Part shown: piece after piece, positions 25,526 through 43,413 of the stretch
Layout: each line of letters starts with the position of its first letter
How positions within the stretch are numbered: position 1 is the stretch's first letter
Assembly (NCBI RefSeq): GCF_019599145.1
Contig: NZ_CP080647.1
Location: 7,874,001-7,938,000 of the forward strand
Reading direction: 5' to 3'
Length of the DNA stretch: 64,000 nt
DNA from: Streptomyces akebiae
Lineage (GTDB): Bacteria > Actinomycetota > Actinomycetes > Streptomycetales > Streptomycetaceae
The notes under the pieces: model-generated
What the model was told of the DNA's origin: nothing
Databases searched by the model: none
What the model saw: the letters and a program-made list of their open reading frames with translations, nothing else
Position numbers and translations under genes: made by a program

Positions 25526-25532
25526 CCGTGCG

Positions 25533-25575: not shown

Positions 25576-25612
25576 GGTCCGCGGGGCCGGCGGTCCAGGG
25601 CCTCGCCGGGCC

Positions 25613-26329
25613 TCAGTGTCCCAGTCCGGCGCCTCCGTCGACGGGGATCACGGCGCCGCGTACGTACCCGGCGTCGGCCAGGAAGGCCACCGCCTCGGCG
25701 ACCTCCTCGGGGGTGCCCAGGCGTCCGGCGGGGGTGGTCCGCAGCAGCGCGCGGCGCTGCTCCGCCGTGAGGGCGCGGCTCATGTCGGTCTCGGTGAGGC
25801 CGGGGGCAACGACGTTGCAGGTGATGTCGCGGGGGCCGAGTTCCTGGGTGAGGGAGCGGGCGAAGCCGACCAGACCCGCCTTCGCCGCGGCGTAGTTGGT
25901 CTGGCCGGGGGCGCCGCGCAGGGCGGCCGTGGAGGAGATCAGGACGATACGGCCGTGGCCCGCGCGCAGCATGCCCCGCACCGCGCGCTGGGCGACACGG
26001 AAGGCCCCGGTGAGATTGGTGTCGACGACCGAGGTGAAGTCCTCCTCGGTCATCCGGACCAGCAGCCGGTCCTGGGCGGCGCCGGCGTTGGCGACCAGGA
26101 CGGAGACCGGGCCGTGGGCGGTCTCGGCCTCCTTGAAGGCCTGGTCGATCTGACCGCTGTCCGTCACATCGCACCGCACGGCGAGGAGCCCCTCGGAGGG
26201 AGGGGGTCCGTCGCCCCGGTGGGTCACGGTGACCCGGTCCCCGGCCGCCGCGAAACGGCGGGCGACGGCGAGCCCGATGCCCCTGTTCCCGCCGGTGACG
26301 AAGACCGAACGGGCCGTGGCCTGTGTCAT
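25613..26329 (-). CDS. fabG: FabG-type 3-oxoacyl-ACP reductase (polyketide ketoreductase)
   Basis: The 238-residue classical SDR has VTGGNRGIGLAVARRF (NADP-binding glycine motif), LVANAG, the catalytic Ser in LISSTAALRG and YxxxK in NYAAAKAGLV, and it ends with DGGAGLGH as FabG proteins do. In this cluster it most likely reduces the beta-keto group after each KS extension on the carrier protein. It is the last of fourteen minus-strand genes; its ATG (26327-26329) overlaps the transporter stop by 4 bases (ATGA). A fatty-acid role cannot be excluded, but coupling to the cluster argues for a dedicated ketoreductase. No dehydratase partner is seen in the operon. Confidence 0.88.
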   Translation of the reverse strand: MTQATARSVFVTGGNRGIGLAVARRFAAAGDRVTVTHRGDGPPPSEGLLAVRCDVTDSGQIDQAFKEAETAHGPVSVLVANAGAAQDRLLVRMTEEDFTSVVDTNLTGAFRVAQRAVRGMLRAGHGRIVLISSTAALRGAPGQTNYAAAKAGLVGFARSLTQELGPRDITCNVVAPGLTETDMSRALTAEQRRALLRTTPAGRLGTPEEVAEAVAFLADAGYVRGAVIPVDGGAGLGH

Positions 26330-28071
26330 CGCGCTGTCCTTTTCTCCGTCGAGCCTGACGGTGTATCCGCCGAGTCCGGCGGTGAGTCCGGTGGCTTCCT
26401 CGCCGAGTCCGGTGGTGAGTCCGGTGGCTTCCTCGCCGAGTCCGGTGGTGAGTCCGGCGGCGTCGTTGCCCGGTCCGGCGGTGAGTCCGGCGGAGTCTTT
26501 GCCGACTCCGGCGGTTTCTGTGTCGGGTCCGGCGAGCGGGGGCGCAGGCCCACGACGGCGACCGCGCATCCGACGAGTGCGAGGGCGGCGACGGAGAGCG
26601 TGGCGGCGTCCATGGCGTCGAGGAAGGCGCGGTCGGCGGTGGTGGCCAGTCCGGGCAGGTCCAGGGAACGGGACAGGGAGCGGGCCGCCTCGGGGGAGGT
26701 GCGGGCCTGTTCCTCGGCTGCCGGGGACAGGTCCGTCGTGGCGCCGGGCAGTTCGGCGTCGGCCATCCGCCGTCGGTAGACGCCGGAGAGGATCGAGCCG
26801 GCCATGGCCACACCGAGGGTGCCGCCGACCTGTCGGGTGACGCTGTTGACGGCGGAGCCGGCGCCCGCGAGCTGCGGCGGCACCCCGCGCATCATCACGG
26901 CCGTGACCGGCGTGCCGACCAGGCCCATGCCGAAGCCCTGGATCCACAGCAGGACGGCGACGATCCAGAGGGGGGTGCGCCCGTCGAGCCAGGCGTAGGC
27001 GACGTAGGTGACGGCGGTGGCCAGGACGCCGGAAGCGACCGTCCAGCGGGCCGACACCAGGCGGCTCAGTGCCGGGGAGGCCTGACTGCCCAGGACGATG
27101 CCGACGGCGGCGGCGATCATCACGGTCCCCGCGTCGGCGGGGGAGAGGCCCCGGGGACCCTGGAGGTAGAAGGCCGCGTAGAACAGGTGACCGGCCAGCG
27201 CCATGAAGGCGATCAGCAGGACCGCACTGCCCGCCGTGAAGCCGGGCTGCCGGAACAGCCGCAGGTCCAGACTGGGCGTCGCGGACCTGCGCTGACCGGC
27301 GACGAACACGGCCAGGAGCACACCGCCCAGCACCAGGGGCAGGAGGACGCGCGGGCCGTACCAGGCGCTGCCGCCGCCGAGTTCGATGACGCCGTAGACG
27401 ACGCCGCCCAGGCCGAGCACCGACAGGGCGAGGCCCGGCAGGTCGAGCACCCGGCGGCGGGAGCCGCCGAGGTCGGGAACGACGGCCAGGACCGCCAGCA
27501 GGCACAGGGCCACGATCGGTACGTTGACCAGGAACACCGAGCCCCACCAGAAGTGGCTGAGCAGTGCCCCGCCCGCGACGGGGCCGACGGCCACGCCGAG
27601 ACCGCTCGACGAACTCCAGATCGCGATCGCCCGGGTGCGTTTCTCCTCCGGGGTGCTCTGCACGATGACCGTCAGCGTCGCGGGCATGAGCAGACCGCTG
27701 CCCGCCCCCATGAAGGCCCGCGCCACGATCAGCCACGCTGGGCTGTCCACGAACGCGCCCGCGCCGGAGGCCACGCCGATCAGCGCGAGCCCGGCGACCA
27801 GCGTCTTCCGGGGGCCGAAACGGTCGGCCAGCGCGCCCCCCGCGAACAGGGTGCCTGCGACGACCAGGGTGTAGGCGCTCGCCACCCACTCCAGTTCGCC
27901 GGGGGTCGCGCCCAGGCCCTTCACCGGGTCGGCGAGGGTGGTGACGGCGACGTTGAGGATCGAGGTGTCCAGCCAGATCAGCATCTGGGCGCAGACCACG
28001 ACCAGGAGGACGGGCCAGGAGCGGGCGGGTGGGGCGGCGGGTGCCGCGGTCGTCCGGCTCACGGTGCTCAC
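26326..28071 (-). CDS. MFS drug/metabolite exporter, DHA2 (14-helix, EmrB/QacA-like)
   Basis: The 581-residue membrane protein is a proton-coupled exporter of the DHA2 family. LIWLDTSILNVAVTTLA in helix 1, GGALADRFGPRKTLV (motif A) and 14 predicted hydrophobic segments support this. After the last helix (near residue 505) a tail of about 75 residues consists of PPDSPPDSARK-type repeats, encoded by 33-base direct repeats. It is likely the product or self-protection exporter for the cluster. The GTG start at 28069-28071 overlaps the lyase stop (GTGA); the stop overlaps fabG. Confidence 0.88.
   Translation of the reverse strand: MSTVSRTTAAPAAPPARSWPVLLVVVCAQMLIWLDTSILNVAVTTLADPVKGLGATPGELEWVASAYTLVVAGTLFAGGALADRFGPRKTLVAGLALIGVASGAGAFVDSPAWLIVARAFMGAGSGLLMPATLTVIVQSTPEEKRTRAIAIWSSSSGLGVAVGPVAGGALLSHFWWGSVFLVNVPIVALCLLAVLAVVPDLGGSRRRVLDLPGLALSVLGLGGVVYGVIELGGGSAWYGPRVLLPLVLGGVLLAVFVAGQRRSATPSLDLRLFRQPGFTAGSAVLLIAFMALAGHLFYAAFYLQGPRGLSPADAGTVMIAAAVGIVLGSQASPALSRLVSARWTVASGVLATAVTYVAYAWLDGRTPLWIVAVLLWIQGFGMGLVGTPVTAVMMRGVPPQLAGAGSAVNSVTRQVGGTLGVAMAGSILSGVYRRRMADAELPGATTDLSPAAEEQARTSPEAARSLSRSLDLPGLATTADRAFLDAMDAATLSVAALALVGCAVAVVGLRPRSPDPTQKPPESAKTPPDSPPDRATTPPDSPPDSARKPPDSPPDSARKPPDSPPDSADTPSGSTEKRTAR
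26370..26490 (-). repeat. 33-base direct repeats in the DHA2 transporter tail
   Basis: Two perfect 33-base copies (26382-26414 and 26415-26447) are flanked by degenerate copies. They code for an 11-residue Pro/Asp/Ser/Lys-rich unit after the last transmembrane helix. The length is probably variable between strains by slippage. Confidence 0.8.
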
Positions 28072-29549
28072 CGCGTGCCTCCGTTCTTCTCGTCATCGCG
28101 CGGCTCCGCGCCCAGCTCGTCGTATCTGCGCAGGGCCCGGTCGATCAGGGCCTCGGCCGCGCCCGTGTACCGGGCGGGGTCGAGCAGTTCCGACAGCCGG
28201 TCGGGGGAGAACCGGGCGGACAGTTCCGGGTCGGCGGCCAGCACCGCGCTCAGGGGGCGGCCGGTGTCGGCGGCCTCGGCCGAGGCGGCGGTCAGGAGCT
28301 TCTTCGCGCGGACCTTGCCGAGCACCGGGGCCAGCGCCACGTTCAGGCGTTCGGTGACGATGGCGCCGCCGGTCAGGTCGAGGTTGGCCCGCATGCGCTC
28401 GGGGTGGACGATCACCCCTTCCGCGAGCTCGACGGCGGTGTGCGCGGCCCCGCCCGTCAGCCGCAGCGCCTCCCGCAGCGGCTGCCACTCGGCGTGCCAC
28501 GCACCGGCGGGCCGCTCGTCCTCGGCGAGCAGACACTGCGCCAGCACGAGGGCGTGCGCGGGGACCTGCCGGGCGGCCGACACGATCAGCGTGGCCAGCG
28601 CGGGGTTCCGCTTCTGCGGCATGGCCGAGGAGGCGCCGCGCCCGGCCCCCGCCGGCTCGGACAGCTCACCGATCTCCGTACGGGACAGCGTCTGCACGTC
28701 GAGCGCGAACTTCCCGAGCGCCCCGGTGACGAGCTGGAGCGCGGCCCCGAGTTCGGCGACGGGAGTACGGACGGTGTGCCAGGGGAGTGTGGGCTCGGCG
28801 AGGCCCAGCGCCTCGGCGAACGGCTTGAGCAGCTCCAGCCCGCCCTCGCCGGGGTCGCCGCTGCCCGTTCCGCCGTTCGTTGCGGCCGGGCCCCCGCGGT
28901 CCAGCACCGCGTACTCCCGATACGCGGCCAACGTCCCGCCCGCTCCTCCCAACTGCGCCGGAAGCCGCGCGGCCACCGCCCGCACCCGCACCGACGCGTC
29001 GGCGACGAGGTCCAGCCACCCCGCCGCCTTCAGCCCGAAGGTCGTCGGCACCGCGTGCTGGGCGAGGGTGCGGCCGGCGAGAACGGTGTGACGGTGGGTG
29101 TCGGCCAGCGAGGCGAGGGCGGCCATCACGCGGCGCAGGTCCGCCGCGATCAGATCGAGCACCCGACGGCCGATCAGCATCGCCGCCGAGTCCAGGATGT
29201 CCTGGCTGGTGGAGCCCCGGTGCACATACTCCGCGGCGACCGGATCCCTCGCGGCGACGACCTCGCCGAAGACGGTGACCAGGGCGACCACCGGGTTGGC
29301 GGCCGCCCGGGCGGCGTGGGCCAGCGCGACCAGGTCGAGCCGGTCCGCGCGGGCCGCCTCGGCGATGGTCTCCACGGCGGCGGCGGGCGTCAGCCCGACC
29401 GCGTGCTGGGCGCGGGCGAGGGCCACTTCGGCGTCCAGCATGGCCTGCAGCCACGCCTCGTCGGTCACCTCGGCCGCGACGGGTGTGCCCGCCCACGTGG
29501 GGGCGAGCAGGCCCGCGTCGGTGCCCGCGGACATCGCGTTCATGCTCAT
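28068..29549 (-). CDS. creD: CreD-like nitrosuccinate lyase (fumarase/aspartase superfamily)
   Basis: The 493-residue lyase has HRGSTSQDILDSAAMLI near residue 120 and the superfamily signature SSAMPQKRNP near residue 305, whose mobile loop carries the catalytic Ser. By overall sequence it falls with 3-carboxymuconate cycloisomerase-like proteins. Cremeomycin CreD, of the same superfamily, splits nitrosuccinate to fumarate and nitrous acid. The gene follows a CreE-type flavoenzyme with a 4-base overlap, the arrangement of the aspartate-nitrosuccinate pathway, so I assign nitrous acid release. The start at ATG 29547-29549 overlaps the creE stop. A true PcaB role is unlikely because no protocatechuate genes are present. 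Confidence 0.85.
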   Translation of the reverse strand: MSMNAMSAGTDAGLLAPTWAGTPVAAEVTDEAWLQAMLDAEVALARAQHAVGLTPAAAVETIAEAARADRLDLVALAHAARAAANPVVALVTVFGEVVAARDPVAAEYVHRGSTSQDILDSAAMLIGRRVLDLIAADLRRVMAALASLADTHRHTVLAGRTLAQHAVPTTFGLKAAGWLDLVADASVRVRAVAARLPAQLGGAGGTLAAYREYAVLDRGGPAATNGGTGSGDPGEGGLELLKPFAEALGLAEPTLPWHTVRTPVAELGAALQLVTGALGKFALDVQTLSRTEIGELSEPAGAGRGASSAMPQKRNPALATLIVSAARQVPAHALVLAQCLLAEDERPAGAWHAEWQPLREALRLTGGAAHTAVELAEGVIVHPERMRANLDLTGGAIVTERLNVALAPVLGKVRAKKLLTAASAEAADTGRPLSAVLAADPELSARFSPDRLSELLDPARYTGAAEALIDRALRRYDELGAEPRDDEKNGGTR

Positions 29550-31756
29550 CGACTCCTCGTGCCGGATGTCCGTCGTGGGGGTGGAACGACGGTGACCTCG
29601 TGGCTCCCGGACGCCGGCCCTGGCTCCGGCTCCGGCCCTGTTTCCGGTCTCGCCCCCGCCCCTGTCCCCGGCTCCGGCGCCAGTACCGGTCCCAGTCCCA
29701 ACGCCGCCCGTGCGATCGCGTCCGAGTCCTCCAGCGTCACCGAGCCGACGCCGGGCCTGATGCCGACCGCCGTCACCCAGCGCACCCCCTCCACCGGCAC
29801 CCCGAAGGCGAACCGGTTCGGATGCGGCCGGCCCGCGGCGTCCACCAGCCGTGGCGGACCGTCGGTGACCGCCAGCCCGCCGGGCTCGTGACCCGGCTCG
29901 CCCGGCAGCCGGTACGGGCCGCACGCGCCGGACACGAGCAGCCCGCGGAGCAGCGGGTCGGTGCTCCGCCGCAGGTCCACGGCGGGCAGCCGGGCCTCGA
30001 TCAGGGCGGCGACCCGCACCGGAGGGTCGTCCACCGACTCGGCGTCCACGAGGAAACCGGCCTCGCCGACGCCCTCCGCCACCTGGGCGCCGGGCGCCCA
30101 CGCCCGTACCCTCATCCCCGGCCCGAGCACCCGCACGACCTCCGCCTCGATCAACGCGATCAGCTGCTCGACACGGAAGGCGGGCGGGCCGATCGAGGTG
30201 AAGGCGTTCAACGGGGTGTACCAGCCGTCGAGTTCGGCGCGGTACGAGTCGCCGGAGACTCCGCCGTGGTCGACGACGAGCCGGATCTCGTTGCGCAGGT
30301 CCCGCAGGGCGTCCAGCGCCGCCTTCAACGGGCCGTGCACATTGCCGCGGCGGGCCTCGGCGACGTCCCGGCGCAGATACGTCAGCAGCCAGCTCCGGAA
30401 GTCGGCGCGGCCGGTGAACCTCCGCTCGCCGTAGGGGTGTTCGATCCGCGTCCAGTCCCATCGCTCGCCGGGCGGGACCGCGTGACGGTCGAGCAGGGCC
30501 GCCTCGCCCCGTCCGTCCGCGTCCGCGCGGCACGACCGTACGAACTCCTCGGCCTCCTCCGGCCCTCGGGCGGCGCGGATCCACGCCTCGTGGTAGACGG
30601 TCCGTACCTCGCGGTCGACGAGCGGCCAGAGGTCCTGGCGGAAGCCCAGGGGGCGTCCGTCGGCCACCCGGCGCCGCAGCCCCGCGATGACGTCCGGGGT
30701 CAGGAAACGCGGCTCGTGGCGCCCGAGCGCGCCCTTCTCGTTCTCGCCCCGGGCGTGGTACGGGACGCCACGCCGCGAACCGGCGTACAGCACGGGCTCG
30801 TTGCCGCTCGGGAGGTACACGAGACCGGACTCGCCCTCCTTGAACGTGCCGCCGCGGCCCTCGGTGAGCAGGGCCACGCAGTCGAAGAAGTTCAGGCCCA
30901 GTCCCCGCAGGGCGACCGGGGTGCCCGGCGCGATCCCGCTCAGGTCGGCGTCGGCCGGGTTGGCCGGGGCCACGTAGGCGAGGCCGTGGCGGTCGGCGAA
31001 GGAGCGCAGCGCGCGCTCCTGCGGCGACGGCGTCAGATCGCCGTGGCCCAGGGCCAGCACCACCGCGTCCAGCCCCGACAGCCGGTCGCCGTTCGCCAGC
31101 GTCACCCGCTGCGGCCGACCCGCGGCCGCCTCGCTCCGCCGGTCTGCCACCTCCTCGCCCCGCCGGCCCGCGGTGTCCTCGTTCCGCACGGTCGCGGGGT
31201 CGTCGGTCAGCGCGGTCGCGGGGTCGTCGGTGAGCGCGACCGCCGTCGTCCGGTGGGTGCGGACCGTCACATGGGCGGGGGCCGTGCGTAACAGGTGCCG
31301 GAAGACCCATTCCAGGTAGTGGCCGTGGAACGCGCGGGTCGGATAGGTGTCGGGGCCGAGCCGCCGGGCCTCCTCCACGACCCGCGCGGGCAGCGTCTGT
31401 ACGACGTCCCGGCCGACCGCCTGACCGTAGTCGTGCTCGCAGTCCCGACCGACGGCCCGGTCGCGGATCGCGCACGCCCAGGCGTACAGGCTCGGTCCCG
31501 GCACCGAAGGTCCCGCGCAGTCCACGCTGTCGTCGGTGAACAGGGTCACCTGGGAGGCGACCGTGTTCATCAGCAGCTCGCCCGGCTGGTCCGTGCGCCA
31601 GACCGCGCCCGCGCCCGGCGGGTACGGATCGACGAGGTGGACCTCGACCGGCCGCCCGACCCCGCCCGCGTTGGCGCAGATCCGCTCCAGCACGGAGAGC
31701 CCGCGCGGACCGGCGCCGATCACACAGACGGCGAGCGCGTCCTCGGCACGGGTCAT
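29546..31756 (-). CDS. creE: CreE-like flavin N-monooxygenase (aspartate to nitrosuccinate)
   Basis: The 736-residue FAD/NAD(P)-binding protein has the N-terminal dinucleotide motif VIGAGPRGLSVLERI (about residues 12-26), LVDPYPPGAGAVWRTDQP and the large C-terminal region typical of this family. CreE of cremeomycin synthesis oxidises the amino group of aspartate to a nitro group in three steps, giving nitrosuccinate for CreD. The pairing with the CreD-like gene is the main functional evidence. The ATG (31754-31756) overlaps the SDR stop. Leu156 uses the rare TTA codon (31289-31291). A 24-base tandem duplication at 31190-31237 adds a repeated ALTDDPAT segment. Confidence 0.87.
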   Translation of the reverse strand: MTRAEDALAVCVIGAGPRGLSVLERICANAGGVGRPVEVHLVDPYPPGAGAVWRTDQPGELLMNTVASQVTLFTDDSVDCAGPSVPGPSLYAWACAIRDRAVGRDCEHDYGQAVGRDVVQTLPARVVEEARRLGPDTYPTRAFHGHYLEWVFRHLLRTAPAHVTVRTHRTTAVALTDDPATALTDDPATVRNEDTAGRRGEEVADRRSEAAAGRPQRVTLANGDRLSGLDAVVLALGHGDLTPSPQERALRSFADRHGLAYVAPANPADADLSGIAPGTPVALRGLGLNFFDCVALLTEGRGGTFKEGESGLVYLPSGNEPVLYAGSRRGVPYHARGENEKGALGRHEPRFLTPDVIAGLRRRVADGRPLGFRQDLWPLVDREVRTVYHEAWIRAARGPEEAEEFVRSCRADADGRGEAALLDRHAVPPGERWDWTRIEHPYGERRFTGRADFRSWLLTYLRRDVAEARRGNVHGPLKAALDALRDLRNEIRLVVDHGGVSGDSYRAELDGWYTPLNAFTSIGPPAFRVEQLIALIEAEVVRVLGPGMRVRAWAPGAQVAEGVGEAGFLVDAESVDDPPVRVAALIEARLPAVDLRRSTDPLLRGLLVSGACGPYRLPGEPGHEPGGLAVTDGPPRLVDAAGRPHPNRFAFGVPVEGVRWVTAVGIRPGVGSVTLEDSDAIARAALGLGPVLAPEPGTGAGARPETGPEPEPGPASGSHEVTVVPPPRRTSGTRSR
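31190..31237 (-). repeat. 24-base tandem duplication inside the creE-like gene
   Basis: Two adjacent 24-base units differ at one base and keep the reading frame. They add an ALTDDPAT repeat in a variable linker of the flavoenzyme. Confidence 0.75.
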
Positions 31757-32673
31757 TCCTGGCCCAGCCCGTCACGCCAGCTCGGTCTGGCCGGCTTCCA
31801 GCCCAGGACCGTACGGGCCCTGTCGTTGGCGGCGCCGTGCGCGGAGGTGAGCTGGTGGGTCATGAACCAGCCGAGGAGCCGGGGCGCGAGGTCCGCCGGG
31901 ACCGTGCGCGGGGAGGGAGCGGCGAGCATCCGGGCCAGGTGCGGCAGCCACTGCGCGGCGGGGGCCGGATCGTCGTCCGTCACATGGAACACCCCGGTGG
32001 CGTCGGACTCGACGGCCGTCACGGCTGCCCCCACCGCGTCCTCGACGTGCAGGAACGACATGATCCCGGCCCCGCCGCCCGGCAGCGGCAGCCGGCCGGC
32101 CTGTACGGATCGCGCGGTGGCGCCGGTACGGGCGTACGCCGTGCGGGGGCCGTACAGCGTGCCGTAGCGCAGCACCACGCCCTCCAGGGCGCCGGCCGTC
32201 ACCTGCCGTTCCAACTCGGCGACGGCCCGAACGGTCGAGGCCCAGCCGGGGTCGGGGGCGTCGACGTACAGGGGCGCGTCCTCGTCCAGGACCGGGCCGC
32301 CGGCCGGGGCGGCGGCGAAGGCGATGGACTGGGCGACCAGTCGGCGCGTGCCGGCCGCGCGAGCCGCCTCGATCAGGTGGGCGGTGCCCTCGACGCGCAG
32401 GCGTGCCGTGCGGGCGAAGGCCTCCGGCGGGTCGTCCCGCAGCAGCCGCAGGGCGGACATCTGATGGACGACGACCTCGGGCCGGGCGGCCGACACCGCC
32501 GACAGCACGGCCTCGCGGTCCAGGGCGTCGGCGACCACCACCTCGTCCGCCTCCGGGGCCCGGCCCCGTGACCCCTGCCGTACCAATGCGCTCACCCGAT
32601 GGCCTCGCGCCCGCAAGGCGCCCACCAGCGGATGTCCGACCACGCCGGTGGCCCCGGCGACGAGTACGCGCAT
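31753..32673 (-). CDS. Atypical extended SDR (NAD-dependent epimerase-like)
   Basis: The 306-residue Rossmann protein begins MRVLVAGATGVVGHPLVGAL (cofactor glycine motif) and has the extended-SDR block VVLRYGTLYGPR near residues 165-176. The usual YxxxK catalytic pair is absent: the corresponding region, around residues 144-153, reads WASTVRAVAE. The enzyme can bind NAD(P)H but probably does not do standard carbonyl chemistry. In the avenalumic acid pathway one enzyme (AvaA6, as I recall) replaces the diazo group by hydride; this SDR is one candidate for that step. The start ATG 32671-32673 is 3 bases after the preceding gene, and the stop overlaps creE. Confidence 0.75.
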   Translation of the reverse strand: MRVLVAGATGVVGHPLVGALRARGHRVSALVRQGSRGRAPEADEVVVADALDREAVLSAVSAARPEVVVHQMSALRLLRDDPPEAFARTARLRVEGTAHLIEAARAAGTRRLVAQSIAFAAAPAGGPVLDEDAPLYVDAPDPGWASTVRAVAELERQVTAGALEGVVLRYGTLYGPRTAYARTGATARSVQAGRLPLPGGGAGIMSFLHVEDAVGAAVTAVESDATGVFHVTDDDPAPAAQWLPHLARMLAAPSPRTVPADLAPRLLGWFMTHQLTSAHGAANDRARTVLGWKPARPSWRDGLGQE

Positions 32674-32676
32674 GGC

Positions 32677-33282
32677 TCAGCCCTCCGAACCGGGGACGAC
32701 AGCGGTGGGTGCGGTGGGTGCGGTGGGTGCGGTGGGTGTGGTGGCCGCGGTGGTCGGGGCGACCCGGATGAGCAGGCGGCACGCCTGGGCGCCGTTCCGC
32801 AGACACGACTCGGCCCTGTTCTCCGTGAGGGTCACGCCGAGACCCTCGGACCAGCCGGCGTGGACGGCGGTGCACGGGCAGCGGTAGCCCTCCAGCGAAC
32901 CGGCCATCCGGACCATGGTGATCGCGAAGTTGCGCTTGAGGGTGAGGACGATCAGGTCCTCGTCCTCGACCTCGGTGGCGGCGTTGCGCAGCTCCGGCGG
33001 GAACATCCGGTCGCCGCAGTCGTCGTAACGGCGGCGCAGCTCCTCCAGGTCCTTGCGGCCGTCGCCGGTGTCGGGGAGGGGGCCGTGCAGCCGGGCGACC
33101 CGCTGCCCGACGTGCAGGGCGACCTTCCCCATAGCCTCCGCGTTGATCTCGTTCGCGACCTCCTGCCCGAACCGCGCGGCCACCCCCTGGTACCAGTTGG
33201 CGTCGTGCTGCCACCACAGCCGGTACGCCTCACCGGCCCGGGCGCGGTGGTTGACGCCCTCGGCGTCGGTGTGCGTGCTCAT
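32677..33282 (-). CDS. DUF6125-like protein of unknown function
   Basis: The 201-residue predicted soluble protein starts with a helical region, AYRLWWQHDANWYQGVAARFG then EINAEAM, resembling the DUF6125/ATC-hydrolase-like family, whose members share a W-x-HD-x-x-W-[FY]-Q-x-V pattern. The second half contains YRCPCTAVHAGWSEG and ESCLRNGAQACR: four Cys and one His that could hold a metal or cluster, although this is a guess. The C-terminus is a TPTAPTAPTAPTA repeat from 9-base units. It is translationally coupled with the ligase before it (ATGA at 33279-33282). A role in the diazotisation or polyketide steps is implied only by position. Confidence 0.6.
   Translation of the reverse strand: MSTHTDAEGVNHRARAGEAYRLWWQHDANWYQGVAARFGQEVANEINAEAMGKVALHVGQRVARLHGPLPDTGDGRKDLEELRRRYDDCGDRMFPPELRNAATEVEDEDLIVLTLKRNFAITMVRMAGSLEGYRCPCTAVHAGWSEGLGVTLTENRAESCLRNGAQACRLLIRVAPTTAATTPTAPTAPTAPTAVVPGSEG
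32704..32745 (-). repeat. 9-base tandem repeats in the DUF6125-like gene tail
   Basis: GGTGGGTGC-type units are repeated about four times and encode a Thr-Ala-Pro tail. This is simple low-complexity sequence. Confidence 0.7.
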
Positions 33283-35997: not shown

Positions 35998-37313
35998 GGT
36001 CGCTCCAGGACGAGTGCGGTGTTGGCGCCCCCGAAGGCGGCGTTGATGGTGAGGGCCCGGCGGAGGTCGGCCTGTCGGGGCCTGTTCGGCACGTAGTCCA
36101 GGTCGCACTCCGGGTCCGCCCGCGTGAAGTTGGCGGTGGGCGGCAGCACGCCCTCCGTCAGCGCCAGCATCGTGATCACGAACTCCACGACTCCGGCGGC
36201 CTCCAGGAGATGGCCGGTGGTGCTCTTGGTGGAGCTGACCGGGATCGCTTCGGCCCGCTCCCGGAGGGCGGCGCGCAGCCCCCGGGTCTCGGCGCCGTCG
36301 TTGTACTTGGTGCCGGTGCCATGGGCGTTGACGTAGCCGAGGCTCGACCCGTCGGGGTCCCCGGCCAGCCGCAGCGCCTGCCGGGCCGCGCGGGCCAGGC
36401 CGACGCCGTCCGGGTGCGGCTGCGCGATGTGGTGGGCGTCGGTCGCCGCACCCCAGCCGACCACACCCGCCAGCGGCCGGGCCCCGCGCCGCCGCGCGTG
36501 CTCGGCCGACTCCAGCACGACCGCCGCGACCCCGTCGCCGAGCAGCAGCCCGGTGCGGTCGGCGCTGAACGGCCGCACCGTGCCGTCACGCGACAGCGCC
36601 CGCCCCGAGTCGAACTTCCCGAACGTCTCCTCCTCCACGAGATAGCCGCCGGCGCACACCGCGACATCGATCCGCCCGGAGGAGATCAGCCGGCAGCCGT
36701 GGATGATCGCGGCGGCGGAGGCCACACAGGCGTTGGTGAAGGTGAGCCGGGGCCCGGTCAGCCCGAGGCCTGCGGCCAGCGACTCGGCGAGATACGCGGG
36801 GACGGCGTCGGCGAGCCGGGCGGCCGCCGGTCCGGCCGGTTCCGCGGCGAGCCCCGCCGCCCCGACGGGCGGCCCGTCGTCGGGGAGGGCGTGCCCCGCG
36901 TCGGTCTCGTCGAGCGCGCGGGCTCGGGGCGTGCCGCGGCCCGTACCGCCGCCGCCGTTCTCGTCGGCCGCCGGTGCCGCCGCCTCCCGCCAGTACCGCG
37001 TGATGCTCGTGCAGTCGCCCGCGATGCCCAGCAGGACCGCCGCCTCGGTGCCCCTGGGCAGGCCCGCCATGTCGAGGGCTTCCGCTCCGCAGCGCGCGAG
37101 GGCGGGACGCAGCGCCCAGTGCTCCATCGCGTCGGGGCCCTCGGGGGCGGCGCCGGCCATCGGGGTGCGGTAGGGGCCGGTGTCGAACCGGGTGGTGGGG
37201 GCGAAGGAGGGGACACCGGCGAAGACACCGCGCCGCAGGGCGTCCGGACCGGTGCCGAAGGCGGTGCGCACGCCGAACCCGGTCACCGTCACCTCACCGG
37301 TCAACGCGCTCAC
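35994..37313 (-). CDS. Beta-ketoacyl synthase (type II KS)
   Basis: The 439-residue condensing enzyme keeps the whole catalytic triad: Cys196 in TNACVASAA, His331 in VNAHGTGT and His368 in KSTTGHLLEAAG, so it should be active in decarboxylative Claisen condensation with malonyl-ACP. The end INAAFGGANTALVLE is typical of KS-alpha/FabF. With the short partner encoded next, it would extend an aryl starter (3-amino-4-hydroxybenzoyl) held on a carrier protein; two rounds would give the carbon count of avenalumic acid. Start is ATG 37311-37313, overlapping the end of the second ACP gene by 20 bases. Confidence 0.9.
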   Translation of the reverse strand: MSALTGEVTVTGFGVRTAFGTGPDALRRGVFAGVPSFAPTTRFDTGPYRTPMAGAAPEGPDAMEHWALRPALARCGAEALDMAGLPRGTEAAVLLGIAGDCTSITRYWREAAAPAADENGGGGTGRGTPRARALDETDAGHALPDDGPPVGAAGLAAEPAGPAAARLADAVPAYLAESLAAGLGLTGPRLTFTNACVASAAAIIHGCRLISSGRIDVAVCAGGYLVEEETFGKFDSGRALSRDGTVRPFSADRTGLLLGDGVAAVVLESAEHARRRGARPLAGVVGWGAATDAHHIAQPHPDGVGLARAARQALRLAGDPDGSSLGYVNAHGTGTKYNDGAETRGLRAALRERAEAIPVSSTKSTTGHLLEAAGVVEFVITMLALTEGVLPPTANFTRADPECDLDYVPNRPRQADLRRALTINAAFGGANTALVLERP

Positions 37314-37629
37314 CCCCCTCCACCGCCCCCGCCGCGCCGGCCGCGCCCAGGAACTCCGTGAGCCGCCGCAGCGAGGTCAGACCCGCGATGTCCTCGTCGC
37401 CGGGCTCCACGACCAGGCCGTACCGCTCCTCCACCACATGCAGCAGCCACACCAAGCCCAGGGAGTCCAGGACCAGCTCGGCGTCCTCGTCGAGGTCGTC
37501 CGGGACGCCGGGGAAGATCTTGCGGTCGGACAGCAGCTCACGGACGAGCCCGGTGGTGAGGACGGCCGGAGGGGAGCCGTCCTGAGGGGCGGCTTCCGTG
37601 ACGGACGGTGTGGAGGTCTCCGCGCTCAT
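37294..37629 (-). CDS. Acyl carrier protein 2
   Basis: The 111-residue carrier protein has its phosphopantetheine attachment Ser at residue 56 in ELVLDSLGLVWLL. A disordered Ala/Pro/Ser N-terminus of about 22 residues and a short Ala/Gly-rich end flank the four-helix core. The VWLLHVVEERYGL helix differs from normal FabC-type ACPs, as expected for a dedicated partner. It probably carries either the aryl starter or the extended chain. The ATG overlaps the stop of the first ACP (ATGA at 37626-37629) and its end overlaps the KS start. Confidence 0.85.
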   Translation of the reverse strand: MSAETSTPSVTEAAPQDGSPPAVLTTGLVRELLSDRKIFPGVPDDLDEDAELVLDSLGLVWLLHVVEERYGLVVEPGDEDIAGLTSLRRLTEFLGAAGAAGAVEGGERVDR

Positions 37630-37901
37630 GCCTTCGCCCCGCGCCCGACGACCTCGGCGACGAGCCCGCCGAGGGTCAGCGAGGCCAACGGCTCGATGTC
37701 GGTGTCCGGGATCTCCACACCGAACCGCGACTCCAGACGCAGCGTCAGCTCGATCAGGCTCAGGGAGTCCAGCTCCAGGCCGCCGACGGTCACCGGGCTC
37801 TCGTCGGTGATCCCGTCCCGGCTCAGCAGGATGTTCATCTCGTCGATGACCGTGGTCAGGACGAACTCGCGGATCTCGTTGTCCAGGGTGGACGTGCTCA
37901 T
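37626..37901 (-). CDS. Acyl carrier protein 1
   Basis: The 91-residue ACP has the phosphopantetheine Ser46 in GGLELDSLSLIELTLRL. The start was taken as ATG 37899-37901 because GGAG lies 9 bases upstream; other in-frame ATGs at 37910 and 37916 lack a ribosome site and the frame continues to 37940. It lies 85 bases after the preceding ligase gene, the largest gap in the operon, so translation is probably independent here. No phosphopantetheinyl transferase is encoded in the cluster, so a host enzyme must activate it. Confidence 0.87.
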   Translation of the reverse strand: MSTSTLDNEIREFVLTTVIDEMNILLSRDGITDESPVTVGGLELDSLSLIELTLRLESRFGVEIPDTDIEPLASLTLGGLVAEVVGRGAKA

Positions 37902-37986
37902 GATCGCCATCTCCATGGGGGAATGTCGTGAGAAGGTCATGCGAAAGGTCGTGCGCGGGGCAGGGGGAGGGAGACCCGTCGGGCCG

Positions 37987-39402
37987 CTACGCGCCGCTCG
38001 CCGCCGCCTGGAGCGTCGCCGCCTGGCGGACCAGCTTCCCGTTCGACGTGCGGGGCAGGGACTCCATCAGCCGGATCACCCGGGGCAGCTTGTAGTCGGC
38101 CAGCCGCTCCCGGCACCAGCGCAGCAGTTCCTCCGCCGACGGGCTCTCGGCCCCGGCGGCGACGGCCACGTACGCCTCGGTGACGTCCTCGTGGACCAGG
38201 ACCGCCTGTTCGACGGCCGGGTGCGCGCGCAGCACGTGCTCGACCTCGGTGAGGTCGACCTTGAGGCCGCCGATGACGACGAGGGAGTCGGCGCGGCCGC
38301 CGACGGTGACCGTTCCGTCGGCGGCGACCGCGGCCCGGTCCCGGGTGTGCAGCCAGCCGTCGGTGTACTGGGTGCCGCCGGAGTCGAAGAGGTACGGCGA
38401 CTCGGCGAGCGCTACGTCCAGTTCGCCCTTGTGCTCCCGGACCACCACACCCGGTGCGGGCCGGCCGACGGAGGGCCGGAGCGTGCCGCCGACGTCGATG
38501 GCGACGATGCCGGTCTCGGTGGTGCCGTAGGCCTCGCCGACCGTGACGCCGTACCGCTCGGCGAACCGCGCGGCGACCTCGGGAGGCATCAGCTCGCCAC
38601 CGGAGACGGCGGTCCGCAGCGCGGGCAGCGCGGGCGGATCGAGGGCGGCCGCGAGCAGCTCGTAGTGCATCGGCACGCCGAAGAGGGCGGTGATGCGGTG
38701 GTCGAGGGAGGTCCGCAGGATGTCGCGGGCCGAGACCCGGGGCGCGAAGACGACGGAGACCCCGGCCGCCAACGCGTGCAGCAGTCCGCCGAGCAGGCCG
38801 AAGCTGTGTGCGGTGGAGCTGAGCAGCAGCAACCGGTCTCCCTCGACCGGCATCCCGGGGACCGCCGCGAACGCCTCGACCTCTGCGGCGATCGACCCGG
38901 CGCTCCGGCCGATCACCTTGGGCCGCCCGGTCGACCCCGAGCTGAACTGGACCAGCCGGTGCCCGCCCTCGGCCGCCCGCCCCGCCCTGCGGCACTCGGT
39001 GGCGACCTCGTACTCGGACCGGAAGCCGAACGCGGCCCGGACGTTGGCACCGGCCCGGACCATGAACTGCGGCCGGCAGACGGCACACAGCGCGTCGACC
39101 TCCGCGGGCTTCAGCCGGAAGTCGAAGAGCATCACCTGCGCGCCCAACCGCCACAGCGCGAGCAGGACCTCGACCTGGGTGAAACTGGGCGGCGTCCGCA
39201 GCCCCACCGTGCTGCCGGGCCCGATGTCGTAACCGGCGAACACGGCGGCCTGCTTGGCGACCCGCTCCCGTAACTCCCCGCGTGTGACGGTCTCCCGCTG
39301 ATGCGTCAGATAGGGCAGGCCGTCGTCCCGTGCGTCGAACAGCCGCTGGACCAGGACGCTCATCCCGTCCTCGCCGGCCGCGGCCGCCACGAGTGAGCCC
39401 AT
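37987..39402 (-). CDS. Aryl acid AMP-ligase (likely 3,4-AHBA-ACP ligase)
   Basis: The 471-residue adenylate-forming ligase has LVQFSSGSTGRPKVIGRSA (A3 core), VGEAYGTTETGIVAID (A5), DGWLHTRDRA (A7) and the C-terminal SLPRTSNGKLVRQAA with catalytic Lys. The length is typical of compact benzoate/aryl acid ligases. Positioned between the 3,4-AHBA synthesis genes and the ACP genes, it probably activates 3-amino-4-hydroxybenzoate and loads it onto a carrier protein. Leu44 is encoded by TTA (39271-39273), a rare codon. The start at 39402 is 6 bases after the GriH-like gene. Assignment relative to the second ligase is by size and position. Confidence 0.78.
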   Translation of the reverse strand: MGSLVAAAAGEDGMSVLVQRLFDARDDGLPYLTHQRETVTRGELRERVAKQAAVFAGYDIGPGSTVGLRTPPSFTQVEVLLALWRLGAQVMLFDFRLKPAEVDALCAVCRPQFMVRAGANVRAAFGFRSEYEVATECRRAGRAAEGGHRLVQFSSGSTGRPKVIGRSAGSIAAEVEAFAAVPGMPVEGDRLLLLSSTAHSFGLLGGLLHALAAGVSVVFAPRVSARDILRTSLDHRITALFGVPMHYELLAAALDPPALPALRTAVSGGELMPPEVAARFAERYGVTVGEAYGTTETGIVAIDVGGTLRPSVGRPAPGVVVREHKGELDVALAESPYLFDSGGTQYTDGWLHTRDRAAVAADGTVTVGGRADSLVVIGGLKVDLTEVEHVLRAHPAVEQAVLVHEDVTEAYVAVAAGAESPSAEELLRWCRERLADYKLPRVIRLMESLPRTSNGKLVRQAATLQAAASGA

Positions 39403-39408
39403 GAGGTC

Positions 39409-40611
39409 TCAGACCTCCTTGCAGAACTCGCCGATGGGCAGGCCCACATGGCGCTTGTCCTGGGCCAGATAACCGAGCAGTTCGTCACCGGTCCGCAGTT
39501 CGGTGACATTGAGGACCTTGCCGCCGGGGCCGAGCACCCGCACATGCCAGTCGTCCTGCACGGTGAGGCTGACCAGCCGCCCGTCCTCCGCGTGGGTGCG
39601 GATCTCCAGCAGCGGCCGGGACTCCAGCTTGGCCCGCCCGACCACCACGCGCCGGGTGCGGCCGTCGGCGCCGACCGCCAGCAGGGCGCTGCCGGAGCCG
39701 ACCTCGCTGAGGTAGTTGGTGCGGTTGTCGGGGCCCAGCGTGTACGAGTGCAGGGCGCCGGCGTTGACCCGGAACGGACGGGTCGGCATGTACGGCAGCG
39801 GGTGGGTCTCACTGCAGCAGAGCACGAAACCGGAGGAGTACGAGCCGACGAGGATGCCCTCGTCCTCCTCGAAGTGCGAGCAGGTGTCCACGCAGACCCG
39901 GTCGCCGAGCCCGACGTGCCGGATGCTCTCGACGGTGAGCGTGGACAGCTCCAGCTGCGGGGTGGTCGCCTCCAGCAGCCGGGCCAGCGCGAACACGTCG
40001 TCCGCGCCGCGGGGCGTGAACAGGATGCCGTCCGAACCCCGTTCGAGCACGTCGAAGACGATGGCCGCCTCCTCCAGGTCCCCGACGACGGTCACCAGCT
40101 TCCCCTCGGCCGACTCGGCCGCCGCGAGCACGATCTCCAAGGGGATCTTCGTCGGATCGGCGAAGTGGATCACCGTGTAGGGCAGCGCCATCGCGCCCAC
40201 GCACGACAGCTGGAGGGTGCGGTCGTCCCGTACGTCGACGAAGCCGGCGACCGGTGTGCCGGTGGCGGCCCGGTTCTCCGCGGCGAGGGCTTCCAGCTCG
40301 TCCTGGGCGGTGAATCCGCGCAGCAGCAGGTCGGGTCCGGCACCGGCCGGGGCCTTGCCCTCGGCTCTGGCATCGGCCTTGCCCTCGGCCGCGCCCCTGG
40401 CCTCCTTGTCGCCCTTGTCGGCGGACCTCTTCGCGGGAGCGGCGGCCGGGGCCCCGCCGGCCAGCACCCGGGTGACCGTCGGCGGCAGTGTCCCCAACAG
40501 CTCGGCGTCGGCGGAGACCACCCCGGCCATCCGGGCGTGGACGGCCGCGTCCACCACCGCCTGGAGCTGCGGACGGGGGACTTCACGGAGATCGATCCAC
40601 GCGAACCTCAT
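39409..40611 (-). CDS. griH: GriH-like 3-dehydroquinate synthase II family enzyme (3,4-AHBA synthase)
   Basis: The 400-residue protein belongs to the archaeal-type 3-dehydroquinate synthase family: RFAWIDLREVP at the start, FTPRGADDVFALARLLE, VCVDTCSHFEEDEGILVGSYSSGFVLCCSET and RPFRVNAGALHSYTL. GriH of grixazone synthesis, in the same family, cyclises the C7 product of GriI to 3-amino-4-hydroxybenzoate. The pair with the adjacent GriI-like aldolase is diagnostic. An Ala/Lys/Gly-rich linker (residues about 57-90) interrupts the N-terminal half. The ATG overlaps the aldolase stop (ATGA at 40608-40611). Confidence 0.9.
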   Translation of the reverse strand: MRFAWIDLREVPRPQLQAVVDAAVHARMAGVVSADAELLGTLPPTVTRVLAGGAPAAAPAKRSADKGDKEARGAAEGKADARAEGKAPAGAGPDLLLRGFTAQDELEALAAENRAATGTPVAGFVDVRDDRTLQLSCVGAMALPYTVIHFADPTKIPLEIVLAAAESAEGKLVTVVGDLEEAAIVFDVLERGSDGILFTPRGADDVFALARLLEATTPQLELSTLTVESIRHVGLGDRVCVDTCSHFEEDEGILVGSYSSGFVLCCSETHPLPYMPTRPFRVNAGALHSYTLGPDNRTNYLSEVGSGSALLAVGADGRTRRVVVGRAKLESRPLLEIRTHAEDGRLVSLTVQDDWHVRVLGPGGKVLNVTELRTGDELLGYLAQDKRHVGLPIGEFCKEV

Positions 40612-41432
40612 GCGACACCTGCCACGATCGTCGAGTAATGGGGAGAGGTAGTCATGCTCATGTCATTGCTGACCCCGTCGCCGTGCACGACGGCGGCGAG
40701 CCGGGACACCAGGGAGGCGGGGGAGGGGGAGGAGAAGATCCGGCGGCCGACGGCCAGCCCCCGGCAGCCCGCGGCCATCACGGCGGTGCCGTACTCGATG
40801 AGGTCGGAGCCGTCGGGCGGACCGCCGGCCGCGAGGACGGGGATGGGGCTGTGGGCCACCACCTCGGCCATGCGGTCGAGCGGCAGGGCCACCGAGGTCT
40901 TCACCATGTCGGCGCCCAGGTCCGCGGCGACGTTCACGATGTGCGCGAGGAGTGCGGGATCGTGCGGGTTCTCGATCCGGGGGCCTCGCGGGTAGACCAT
41001 CGCGATCAGCGGCATGCCCCAGGTGTCGCAGGAGCGGGCCACCGCCCCGAGGTCGGCGAGCTGGCGCCCCTCGGTGTCCGAGCCGATGTTCACATGGACG
41101 CTGACCGCGTCGGCGCCCAGGGCCACCGCCTCCTCCACGTCGCCGACCAGCACTTTGGCGTCGACATCGGCGGAGCAGGCCGTGCTGGCGCTCAGATGCA
41201 CCACCAGCGCGCAGCTCCGCAGGAGGGCCGGATCGAGCGTGCGGGCCCGCCCCTTGTGGACGATGATCCCGTCGGCGCCGCCGGCCACCAACGCCTTCAA
41301 CAACTCTTCCCACTGACCCGGAGGAGCGACCGGACCGTCCGAAACGCTGTGGTCGAGCGGTATCAGCAAATGCCGGTCGTCGCCGACCAGCGAAAGTCTT
41401 CTCCAACGTAATGGCTTGCCACTTTTCAGCAT
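40608..41432 (-). CDS. griI: GriI-like class I aldolase (DhnA family, C7 precursor synthesis)
   Basis: The protein, about 274 residues, is a class I fructose-bisphosphate-aldolase-like enzyme. LLIPLDHSVSDGP begins the barrel, DAVSVHVNIGSD follows, and the Schiff-base Lys is in GADMVKTSV; IFSSPSP ends the core. GriI joins aspartate 4-semialdehyde with dihydroxyacetone phosphate to make the C7 precursor of 3-amino-4-hydroxybenzoate, which GriH cyclises. It is the first gene of the operon. ATG 41430-41432 is preferred (GGAAGG upstream) over the TTG at 41529-41531. Codon 8 is TTA (41409-41411), so the entry gene of the pathway probably needs the bldA tRNA. Confidence 0.9.
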   Translation of the reverse strand: MLKSGKPLRWRRLSLVGDDRHLLIPLDHSVSDGPVAPPGQWEELLKALVAGGADGIIVHKGRARTLDPALLRSCALVVHLSASTACSADVDAKVLVGDVEEAVALGADAVSVHVNIGSDTEGRQLADLGAVARSCDTWGMPLIAMVYPRGPRIENPHDPALLAHIVNVAADLGADMVKTSVALPLDRMAEVVAHSPIPVLAAGGPPDGSDLIEYGTAVMAAGCRGLAVGRRIFSSPSPASLVSRLAAVVHGDGVSNDMSMTTSPHYSTIVAGVA

Positions 41433-41888
41433 GGGAAAAGCGCCTTCCGATCCATGTCCGAAAAACGATGGTCGTAGAAGTTTCAAGTTCAGCCGGACGT
41501 CAGCATTCCGTGCGTGATCGGCAGTTGGCAAGGCGTGACCGTCGGCAAATTTTTATGCGGGTCAACGCATGAATATTGACAGTGAGTTGACAGGATCTTC
41601 AGGGTTGACGGGGTCCAAGGGTGGTGTTCGTGGCCAATTTTGGCGACCTGTCCGCACGCATAGCGGGATCACATGTTTTAAATGTCGTTGTCCTGCGTAA
41701 TCGACGCGTATTCCTCCGTCGAAAAAGTTCGACGAAGTCGGCGGGCGGTTCCTTTTCCGAGGGTTCCTTGTGGGATTCGAATTTCCCGGCCTAGGGTGAC
41801 AGCCACACTCCGGTTCGTGTTTCATGCGTGGCCGTCCCCATCTGGGCCCGGACCATTCGTGTCCGGGCATACCGGAAGTGAGCCCCCC
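41433..41888. promoter_or_regulatory. Divergent promoter region of the biosynthetic cluster
   Basis: This 456-base region between the griI-like operon and the divergent MFS gene is clearly richer in A+T than its surroundings. It contains GTCAACG (41561), TTGACAG (41576 and 41587, 11 bases apart) and TTGACG (41605), an array of related half-sites on one face of the helix, and the MFS promoter candidate at 41768-41797. No cluster regulator gene is present, so control would come from elsewhere. Confidence 0.6.
41768..41797 (+). promoter_or_regulatory. Candidate promoter for the divergent MFS gene
   Basis: TTGTGG (41768) and TAGGGT (41792) are separated by 18 bases, about 92 bases before the ATG at 41889. 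The fit to a Streptomyces housekeeping promoter is moderate. Confidence 0.4.
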
Positions 41889-43262
41889 ATGCCCGAATCC
41901 CCGTCCAGAACCGTCGCCGAGGCCGCCGACCCCAGACCCGCCTCCTTACCGGTCTCCCCCTCGGCCGGGACCAGCAAGGCGCCCAAGGTCGCCGCCGCGA
42001 GCCTCATCGGCACGACCATCGAGTACTACGACTTCGCCGTCTACGGCACGGCCTCCGCGCTCGTCCTCGGCCCCGCGTTCTTCCCCTCCGGCAACCCGAC
42101 CGTCTCCTCCCTCGCCGCGTTCCTCACCTTCGCGGCGGCCTTCCTGTCCCGCCCCCTCGGCGTCGTGCTCTTCGGCACGATCGGCGACCGGCTGGGCCGG
42201 CGACGCGCCCTGGTCGCCTCCCTCCTGCTCATGGGCCTCGCGACGGTCGGCGTCGGGCTGCTCCCGACCTACGAGAGCGCCGGACTCCTCGCCCCCGTCC
42301 TCCTGGTGACCCTCCGTCTGCTGCAGGGCGTCAGCATGGGCGGCGAGTGGGGCGGCGCGGTCCTGCTGGCCGCCGAGCACGCCCCGCCCGGCCGACGGGC
42401 CCTGTACGCCGCCGTCCCGAACATCGGCCCCTCTCTCGGTTTCCTGCTCTCCAGCGCCGTCATCCTCCCGACCCTGAACATCGTGGGCCGCGACGGCTTC
42501 ACCGACTGGGCCTGGCGGGTGCCGTTCCTGCTCAGCGCGGTGCTCGTGGTGGTCGGGCTGTGGGTGCGGTCGACGGTGTCGGAGTCGCCGGTCTTCCAGG
42601 ACCCGCCCTCGGCGGGGACGTCCCCGGTGTCCCCGGCGTCGCCGGTGTCGCGCTTCCCGCTCGGCACGCTCGTCGCGCGGTACCCCGGCCGGCTGCTGCT
42701 CGGCACCGGCGCGGCGATCGGCGGGTCCGCCGTCTACTACCTGACGATCGTCTACAGCCTGTCCTACGGGCCGAAGTCGCTCGGCATCCCACAGAACACG
42801 ATGCTCACCGCGGCGAGTGTGGGGGCGGCCGCCGGCATCGCGGTCACCCTGCCCGCCGCCCGGCTGGCGGACCGGGTCGGTCGCCGTCCGCTGATGCTGA
42901 CGGGTGCGGTCGGGTGCGTGGTCTGGGCCGTGCCGATGTACGGCTCGCTCAGCACGGGCAACGGGTACGTCATCACCGGTGCGTACACGGTGGGTCTCAT
43001 GCTGCTCGCCCTGATGTTCTCGCCGGTGGCGGCGTTCCTGGCGGAGCTGTTCCCGGCGAGGCTGCGCTACACCGGGGCGTCGGCGGCGTTCATCCTGGCC
43101 AATACGCTCGGGGGCGGGTTCGCTCCGCTCGTGGCGACGTGGCTGAACAGCCAGTGGTCGTCGCCGTTGGTGCTGGGGTTCTACACCGGCGGGCTGTGCC
43201 TGGTCAGCCTGCTGTGCCTGTGGGCGCTGCCGGAGACGCGGGAGGACGACTTCACCGCCTGA
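41889..43262 (+). CDS. MFS transporter, metabolite:H+ symporter (MHS) family
   Basis: The protein, about 457 residues with 12 membrane segments, belongs to the MHS family (ProP/KgtP/ShiA relatives): GTTIEYYDFAVYGTASALV in helix 1, GDRLGRRRALVASLL motif A and MGGEWGGAVLLAAEHAP. Members usually import organic acids, shikimate or betaine with protons, so it could bring in a precursor or export the acidic product. ATG 41889 is used because GGAAG lies 10 bases upstream; the frame extends to 41682. Codon 20 is TTA (41946-41948). It diverges from the cluster operon and is convergent with pgl, so it belongs to the inserted segment. Confidence 0.85.
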   Translation: MPESPSRTVAEAADPRPASLPVSPSAGTSKAPKVAAASLIGTTIEYYDFAVYGTASALVLGPAFFPSGNPTVSSLAAFLTFAAAFLSRPLGVVLFGTIGDRLGRRRALVASLLLMGLATVGVGLLPTYESAGLLAPVLLVTLRLLQGVSMGGEWGGAVLLAAEHAPPGRRALYAAVPNIGPSLGFLLSSAVILPTLNIVGRDGFTDWAWRVPFLLSAVLVVVGLWVRSTVSESPVFQDPPSAGTSPVSPASPVSRFPLGTLVARYPGRLLLGTGAAIGGSAVYYLTIVYSLSYGPKSLGIPQNTMLTAASVGAAAGIAVTLPAARLADRVGRRPLMLTGAVGCVVWAVPMYGSLSTGNGYVITGAYTVGLMLLALMFSPVAAFLAELFPARLRYTGASAAFILANTLGGGFAPLVATWLNSQWSSPLVLGFYTGGLCLVSLLCLWALPETREDDFTA

Positions 43263-43408: not shown

Positions 43409-43413
43409 CTCGT

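Follow-up and report, generated by a model that had tools for sequence, protein, structure and literature searches.

What do the 14 tightly packed minus-strand genes that span 41,432 to 25,613 of a 64-kb stretch of the Streptomyces akebiae genome (contig NZ_CP080647.1) make? The window, by which we mean this whole stretch of 64,000 nucleotides, is part of a 10.55-Mb, two-contig genome. A first-pass annotation, made from its letters, had proposed a cluster that combines 3-amino-4-hydroxybenzoate (3,4-AHBA), nitrous acid, and a small type II polyketide synthase (PKS), and had pointed to the ava cluster of Streptomyces sp. RI-77. Our analysis identifies an intact ava-type cluster, and its product is very probably avenalumic acid, a phenolic acid of the plant type that is reached by an unusual route: the ring first receives an amino group, which nitrous acid chemistry later takes off. 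Gene content, family membership, and the clade of the chain length factor (CLF) are observed directly; the product of this strain is predicted by analogy, from reactions shown in print for homologues only. The locus is a further member of a published kind of cluster, to which we add arguments on what AvaB may do, evidence that the nitrite genes E and D have changed state repeatedly, and the conserved chromosomal place.

The gene order in the window is I-H-A1-A2-A3-A4-A5-A6-B-A7-E-D, followed by C and A8. All of these genes are in frame, lie on the same strand, and have a high, coding-like third-position G+C. Their coordinates and assignments, with those of the divergent neighbor, which encodes a major facilitator superfamily (MFS) transporter, are as follows:

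41889..43262, plus strand: divergent MFS metabolite:H+ symporter gene, shikimate-transporter-like; reading frame open from 41,682, likely start at 41,889
40608..41432, minus strand: avaI, GriI-type aldolase, predicted first step to 3,4-AHBA; ATG at 41,432 with GGAAGG upstream, frame open to 41,531
39409..40611, minus strand: avaH, GriH-type 3,4-AHBA synthase of the 3-dehydroquinate synthase II family, by Pfam/NCBIfam
37987..39402, minus strand: avaA1, AMP-binding ligase predicted to load 3,4-AHBA on the starter acyl carrier protein (ACP), by homology with AvaA1/CmaA1
37626..37940, minus strand: avaA2, ACP for the malonyl extender, DSLSLIEL; ACP match over the cut-off
37294..37629, minus strand: avaA3, starter ACP, DSLGLVWLLH; ACP match below the cut-off, DSL site kept
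35994..37313, minus strand: avaA4, ketosynthase (KS), Cys196/His331/His368, by Pfam KS
35098..35856, minus strand: avaA5, half-size CLF of 252 aa, by a weak match to the N-terminal half of KS and the CLF tree
33279..35111, minus strand: avaA6, predicted ATP-dependent 3-aminoavenalumate diazotase, by NF058622 and AMP-binding
32677..33282, minus strand: avaB, 201-aa protein without a clear family, Bet3/V4R/phenol-sensor fold in the structure model
31753..32673, minus strand: avaA7, predicted NADPH-dependent 3-diazoavenalumate denitrifying reductase, an atypical short-chain dehydrogenase/reductase (SDR), by NF058621 and epimerase-type SDR
29546..31756, minus strand: avaE, CreE-type flavin monooxygenase, predicted to convert aspartate to nitrosuccinate, by PF13454 and homologues at the same place in ava loci
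28068..29549, minus strand: avaD, nitrosuccinate lyase, predicted to release nitrous acid, by NF052556
26326..28071, minus strand: avaC, DHA2-type MFS exporter, by Pfam/NCBIfam
25613..26329, minus strand: avaA8, FabG-type ketoreductase, by Pfam/NCBIfam

The first-pass annotation had described the region as one coupled operon. That holds for every biosynthetic gene that it named, but the gene at 41,682-43,262 is divergent on the plus strand and lies outside the operon, and the 201-aa AvaB had been omitted. Many ava loci have a homologue of the divergent gene upstream of I, likewise in divergent orientation. It is probably the counterpart of avaF, its identity with AvaF itself being judged from this position.

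The family assignments agree with the enzymology that had been read from the letters. The I protein is a DeoC-type aldolase (PF01791) that scores 309.8 against a cut-off of 241 for NF005556, and H is a 3-dehydroquinate synthase II (PF01959) that scores 578 against a cut-off of 375 for NF002625. Both members of the 3,4-AHBA pair therefore exceed their subfamily models; the BagB_FevI and BagC_FevH models give 266.5 for I and 402.3 for H, under their cut-offs of 500 and 750. Curated cut-offs are also exceeded by A6 for the AvaA6 diazotase (NF058622; 1016.8 bits, cut-off 975), by A7 for the AvaA7 denitrifying reductase (NF058621; 520.1 bits, cut-off 400), and by D for nitrosuccinate lyase (NF052556; 665.8 bits, cut-off 650). 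The CreE/CreD-type pair lies beside A7, with E recognized through PF13454 and through its homology with other ava loci. Pfam and NCBIfam also bear out the two ligases (A1 and A6), the two ACPs (A2 and A3), the ketoreductase (A8), and the exporter (C) of the annotation, and the KS-CLF is of the AvaA4/AvaA5 type.

Conserved residues were compared across relatives. GTDB species genomes were scanned with a diazotase alignment, and the best 80 of 92 confirmed stretches resolved into 76 loci. Five of these (L099-L103) proved to be remote ligases and were set aside; the comparisons use the other 71 (L028-L098). The KS A4 keeps the full triad Cys196/His331/His368. Its short partner A5 has the active cysteine replaced and has no C-terminal KS half. 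The starter ACP A3 scores 14.5 bits against a cut-off of 20.8, and its Trp and His motif (W..H) is kept in all 64 loci where A3 was found; these two residues of the starter ACP have been tied to ligase recognition (PMC10777205). As the annotation had described, A7 is atypical for an SDR: over 60 rows, there is no Tyr-x-x-x-Lys in the region examined, and Trp144 is invariant in 60 of 60. A phmmer search of A5 against solved structures returned chance matches only. The third-best fold match of A5, on a low-confidence model (predicted local distance difference test score of 66), is the ApeO-ApeC aryl polyene KS-CLF (6qsp), which likewise pairs a KS with a half-size CLF (238 aa in 6qsp_B).

The comparison with ava-type clusters that had been suggested yields the ava gene content and the I to D order. 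For RI-77, the published list is F, C, I, H, A1, A2, A3, A4, A5, A6, B, A7, E, D, A8 (PMC10777205, Table 1), and the window matches this system (Kawai et al. 2022, via PMC10777205 and PMC11705231) in gene content, in the I to D order, in E, D, A6, and A7, and in CLF clade. The cluster named in the annotation was thus the right one to compare. One difference is that Table 1 puts avaC before avaI, whereas C lies between D and A8 in the window. The same position of C is seen in L045, which is closest to RI-77 in the A6 tree. A6 is 87% identical to an AvaA6 of Streptomyces sp. (P0157, UniProt AVAA6_STRSQ) over aligned columns and 80% by BLASTP; A5 is 77% identical over 242 aligned residues to P0336, a Streptomyces sp. 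record named chain length factor that is probably AvaA5 of RI-77. The association of these genes is not a matter of chance, because 56 of the 71 diazotase loci carry I to A7 contiguously in the same order, although the A7 counted for Streptomyces scabiei L088 is a relic only. Among 392 sampled Streptomyces genomes, the diazotase model matches 27 at E ≤1e-150 and 25 over the cut-off; AvaA7 is over its cut-off in 24, all of them among those 25. This confinement is a strong sign that AvaA6 and AvaA7 work together.

The number of chain extensions is the point on which the predicted product turns. In the CLF tree, the A5 of the window and P0336 fall in a clade of 41 of the 70 rows, with a support of 98 in the Shimodaira-Hasegawa-like approximate likelihood ratio test (SH-aLRT). 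Kutzneria and other loci form a separate clade of 26 rows (SH-aLRT 99), and 3 of the 70 rows lie outside both; K. albida is not itself a row, and K. viridogrisea (L076) and other Kutzneria rows stand in for it. Since A5 belongs to the AvaA5 clade and not to the Kutzneria type, which is associated with p-coumaric acid, avenalumic acid, the product of two extensions, is the likeliest product.

The reactions published for homologues suggest how it would be made. 3,4-AHBA on A3 is extended with malonyl units that A2 supplies, and after reduction the chain comes off as 3-aminoavenalumic acid. This compound is diazotized by A6 with nitrous acid from E and D, and A7 replaces the diazo group with a hydride from NADPH (PMC10777205, PMC11705231). 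In the window, I and H would provide 3-amino-4-hydroxybenzoate, which A1 would load onto the ACP A3. The KS-CLF A4/A5 would then add two malonyl units carried by A2, and A8 would reduce the keto group, with dehydration thought to be carried out by the fatty acid synthase and release of 3-aminoavenalumic acid by an unassigned thioesterase. The likeliest role of AvaB is to bind the phenolic aryl-acyl chain while it is being built. E and D would convert aspartate to nitrous acid, A6 would use it with ATP to diazotize the aryl amine, and A7 would exchange the diazo group for a hydride from NADPH; C, and perhaps F, would carry compounds across the membrane. The annotation had anticipated nitrous acid from aspartate, diazotization of the aryl amine, and a possible replacement of the diazo group by hydride. 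All three are published ava steps, and A6, A7, and D are over curated cut-offs here. The cremeomycin (cre) and spinamycin (spi) systems have the same CreE/CreD-type nitrite supply and ATP-dependent diazotase as the window (PMC11705231, PMC13061610). Unlike the ava route, however, cremeomycin retains its diazo group, and in the spinamycin system E and D are naturally fused, the product is a hydrazide, and the substrate lacks the ring hydroxyl (PMC11705231, PMC13061610).

Several points weigh against so definite a product. The cluster is known here from its genes, and the product is to that extent a forecast. P0157 is taken as the AvaA6 of RI-77, and the origin of both P0157 and P0336 rests on their names and on their closeness to L045. 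The CLF tree is a quick tree, with no bootstrap and with long-branch warnings; three CLF clades are described in PMC10777205, to which our tree was not matched, and the CLF clade as a guide to chain length rests on two characterized clusters. No NCBIfam model matches E. Finally, RI-77 itself yielded no avenalumic acid that could be isolated, and its cluster is described as probably silent (PMC11705231); by analogy, the cluster in the window may be silent too.

A different tailored end product, namely, 3-aminoavenalumic or 3-diazoavenalumic acid, or a conjugate formed through genes elsewhere in the genome, is unlikely. Pathway variants do occur: 25 of the 71 loci have no E/D, and some have no A7; 8 of the 71 are followed by a methyltransferase-like gene and an additional acyl ligase; and N-acetyl shunt products form in a heterologous host (PMC10777205). 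In the window, however, the genes E, D, A6, and A7 are adjacent and all intact, and a tblastn search of the 64-kb window with the extra ligase, which did not cover the rest of the genome, found as its sole match the weakly related A1 (27% identity). Avenalumic acid is favored over the 3-amino or 3-diazo analogue that the annotation had also allowed because E, D, A6, and A7 are open frames and the CLF is of the AvaA5 clade. It is very improbable that the cluster is instead of the cma type of Kutzneria albida, making p-coumaric acid by one malonyl extension with otherwise the same chemistry: the core I-H-A1-A2-A3-A4-A5-A6-B-A7-E-D is common to cma and the window, and CmaA6 accepts both substrates (PMC10777205), but the cma CLF is only 35.4% identical to AvaA5 (PMC10777205), the CLF of the window lies in the AvaA5 clade, and cma has cmaG (FMN oxidoreductase) and cmaR (LysR) without A8 or C (PMC10777205), whereas the window has A8 and C, as in ava, and no cmaG or cmaR among the genes called at 25,613-43,262.

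Relatives of the cluster often do not carry the nitrite genes. Of the 71 loci, 33 have a complete E/D pair, 25 have none, and 3 keep part of it; in the other 10, a contig end prevents a decision. In print, 134 clusters of the ava kind are counted, with E/D absent in 72 (PMC10777205). What is new over this published absence in about half is that the state changes between sister clusters. When the 61 rows with a state are considered, with the 3 partial loci scored as absent and RI-77 as present from print, the A6 tree needs at least 15 state changes for E/D and at least 5 for A7. Sisters on the A6 tree differ: the window has E/D and Streptomyces caniscabiei does not, and Streptomyces torulosus has them and Streptomyces ossamyceticus does not. 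In L033 and L037, about 45 bp directly after A7 match the start of the S. torulosus E/D region, and Streptomyces djakartensis keeps E residues 1-171 beside D residues 399-488. These remnants point to deletion of E/D in those three loci; most of the other loci without E/D show no such scar.

Near-identical natural cluster pairs with and without nitrite genes raise the question of where the nitrite comes from. Thirteen Streptomyces genomes have AvaA6 over the cut-off and no complete cluster E/D, one of them (G372) with its cluster at a contig end. Six of these have a nitrosuccinate lyase over the cut-off beside an E-like gene elsewhere, and seven have none; an extra nitrite pair occurs in 1 of 12 genomes whose cluster has E/D (6/13 vs 1/12, Fisher p = 0.073). 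Many of these genomes hold a further E-like gene (53-59% identity) without an adjacent lyase, so E alone was not counted as a nitrite pair. Against the 367 genomes without AvaA6 over the cut-off, 87 of which score (102/392 less 15), the difference gives a Fisher p of 0.094, with the background a lower bound, as split hits fall outside E 1e-190, and with a neighboring E not required. A second nitrite pair that makes up for the loss of E/D is therefore not clearly above background.

The reductase gene A7 varies as well. L067, L070, L072, and L082 keep the diazotase and B, but neither A7 nor E/D follows B. The A7 inside the cluster of S. scabiei 87.22 (L088 12,243-12,447) is cut to a 47-residue match. 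A diazo end product in this strain, which the relic had suggested, was rejected in view of an intact A7 (526.8 bits; L104 9,734-10,657) about 1.03 Mb away.

The published work assigns no role to AvaB. Our models give it a Bet3/V4R/phenol-sensor fold, so that it belongs with these proteins in three-dimensional fold, and Cys89, Cys135, Cys137, His141, Trp144, Cys160, and Cys168 are conserved. The likeness is limited: the phenol-sensor domains of MopR, PoxR, and DmpR and Bet3 (TRAPPC3) give TM-scores against the AvaB model of only about 0.4-0.55, none of them matches in sequence, and AvaB stands alone without an output domain. A sequence search of solved structures found no match to AvaB at E ≤1 and one chance-like match at 1.6. 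For 58 AvaB members searched against Pfam at E ≤10, 11 families are listed, V4R not among them, with HMMER filters that drop weak matches; DUF6125 is found in 57 of the 58 and ATC_hydrolase in 45, mostly weakly.

In genomic context, avaB adjoins A4-like KS genes even at places that have neither nitrite genes nor AvaA7 close by, and AvaB would therefore belong to chain assembly. We tentatively propose that AvaB may represent a family of stand-alone V4R/Bet3-fold proteins serving aryl-primed type II PKSs, of which it would be the first to be recognized, a possibility that we rate well below even. It would bind the aryl head, phenolic or amino-substituted, of the chain on the ACP much as phenol sensors bind phenol, and would either present it to partner enzymes or, via a conserved cysteine, carry out the unassigned release or dehydration step. 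Cys89 is a candidate catalytic cysteine, by loose analogy with the covalently palmitoylated Bet3. The conserved cysteines may also resemble a metal site of phenol sensors. That AvaB is instead a nitrite- or diazo-side protein, for example a sensor of nitrite or nitric oxide, given a likeness to H-NOX, and not a PKS component, is unlikely, its KS-linked occurrence away from nitrite genes pointing to assembly. This structural and contextual case bears on a point left open in print. We found no published account of the fold of AvaB or of the location between pgi and pgl described below, in a search that did not cover the supplements of PMC10777205 and that does not exclude a paper naming S. scabiei together with avenalumic acid.

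On the chromosome, the cluster is bordered by two core genes outside it:

23873..25525, plus strand: pgi, left border of the insertion site
43414..44196, minus strand: pgl, right border of the insertion site, beyond which lies opcA-zwf-tal-tkt

The cluster sits between the 3′ ends of these genes, near opcA-zwf-tal-tkt and gap-pgk-tpi. In the 71 loci, pgi lies beside the cluster in 11 (10 of the 56 loci of at least 20 kb), and both pgi and pgl are found in 9: S. scabiei, S. stelliscabiei, S. caniscabiei, S. ipomoeae, S. torulosus, S. tailanensis, S. adelaidensis, and two further species. Only pgi is seen in S. ossamyceticus, which reaches a contig end, and in S. neyagawaensis, with no pgl within 3.7 kb. 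The A6 tree, a quick tree with no bootstrap, joins the window and 11 rows in one clade (SH-aLRT 95); pgi is present in the locus for 10 of the 11, and the contig of the eleventh is too short to tell. RI-77 falls in a neighboring clade, and the pgi-pgl site is common to the close relatives of the window. In 18 other Streptomyces genomes, pgi and pgl are convergent with a gap of less than 1 kb in 8 (about 70-200 bp in 7), and pgi is not within 1.5 kb of pgl in 10. Given the convergent, close pair elsewhere and the site shared in the clade, the most likely history is insertion of the cluster between two convergent core genes, followed by inheritance within this clade. It would thus have a fixed chromosomal home in a clade that takes in scab-associated Streptomyces.

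In S. neyagawaensis (L062), the ava cluster lies beside pgi, yet its A6 belongs to another clade than the A6 of the remaining clusters found there, a sign of either a second insertion or a replacement through recombination. The pgi-pgl gap (25,526-43,413 in the window) may be a general place of insertion; 10 of the 18 other genomes lack a close pgi-pgl pair.

Other associations were seen around the relatives. One module that travels with ava consists of an acyl-ligase gene, whose product of about 550 aa stays under every NCBIfam cut-off shown, and a methyltransferase-like gene convergent with it. It lies behind 8 of the 71 clusters (L040, L041, L050, L053, L064, L077, L083, and L085) and behind a stand-alone AvaA7 in three genomes: L104 (9734-13284), L105 (9900-13759), and L106 (3887-7564). 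The module is 84-94% identical even between Streptomyces and Lentzea, and the diazotases of those Lentzea are only 62-63% identical to the A6 of the window. Identity so far above that of the diazotase suggests that the module probably moved recently.

Four Streptomyces loci (L137-L140) carry A1-, A2-, A3-, A4-, A5-, and B-like genes together with a second FabF-like KS and an aminodeoxychorismate-synthase-like gene, and L138 also has an AurF-type p-aminobenzoate N-oxygenase. Their A6 match is remote (25-27%, E 1e-6 to 1e-9), and they resemble type II PKS clusters that use an amino- or nitrobenzoate as the starter. Lastly, the second contig of the genome to which the window belongs (about 0.29 Mb) has 34 KS matches at about 64-256 kb, most in very long frames of up to 9,901 aa; this region points to a giant modular type I PKS that may be plasmid-borne.

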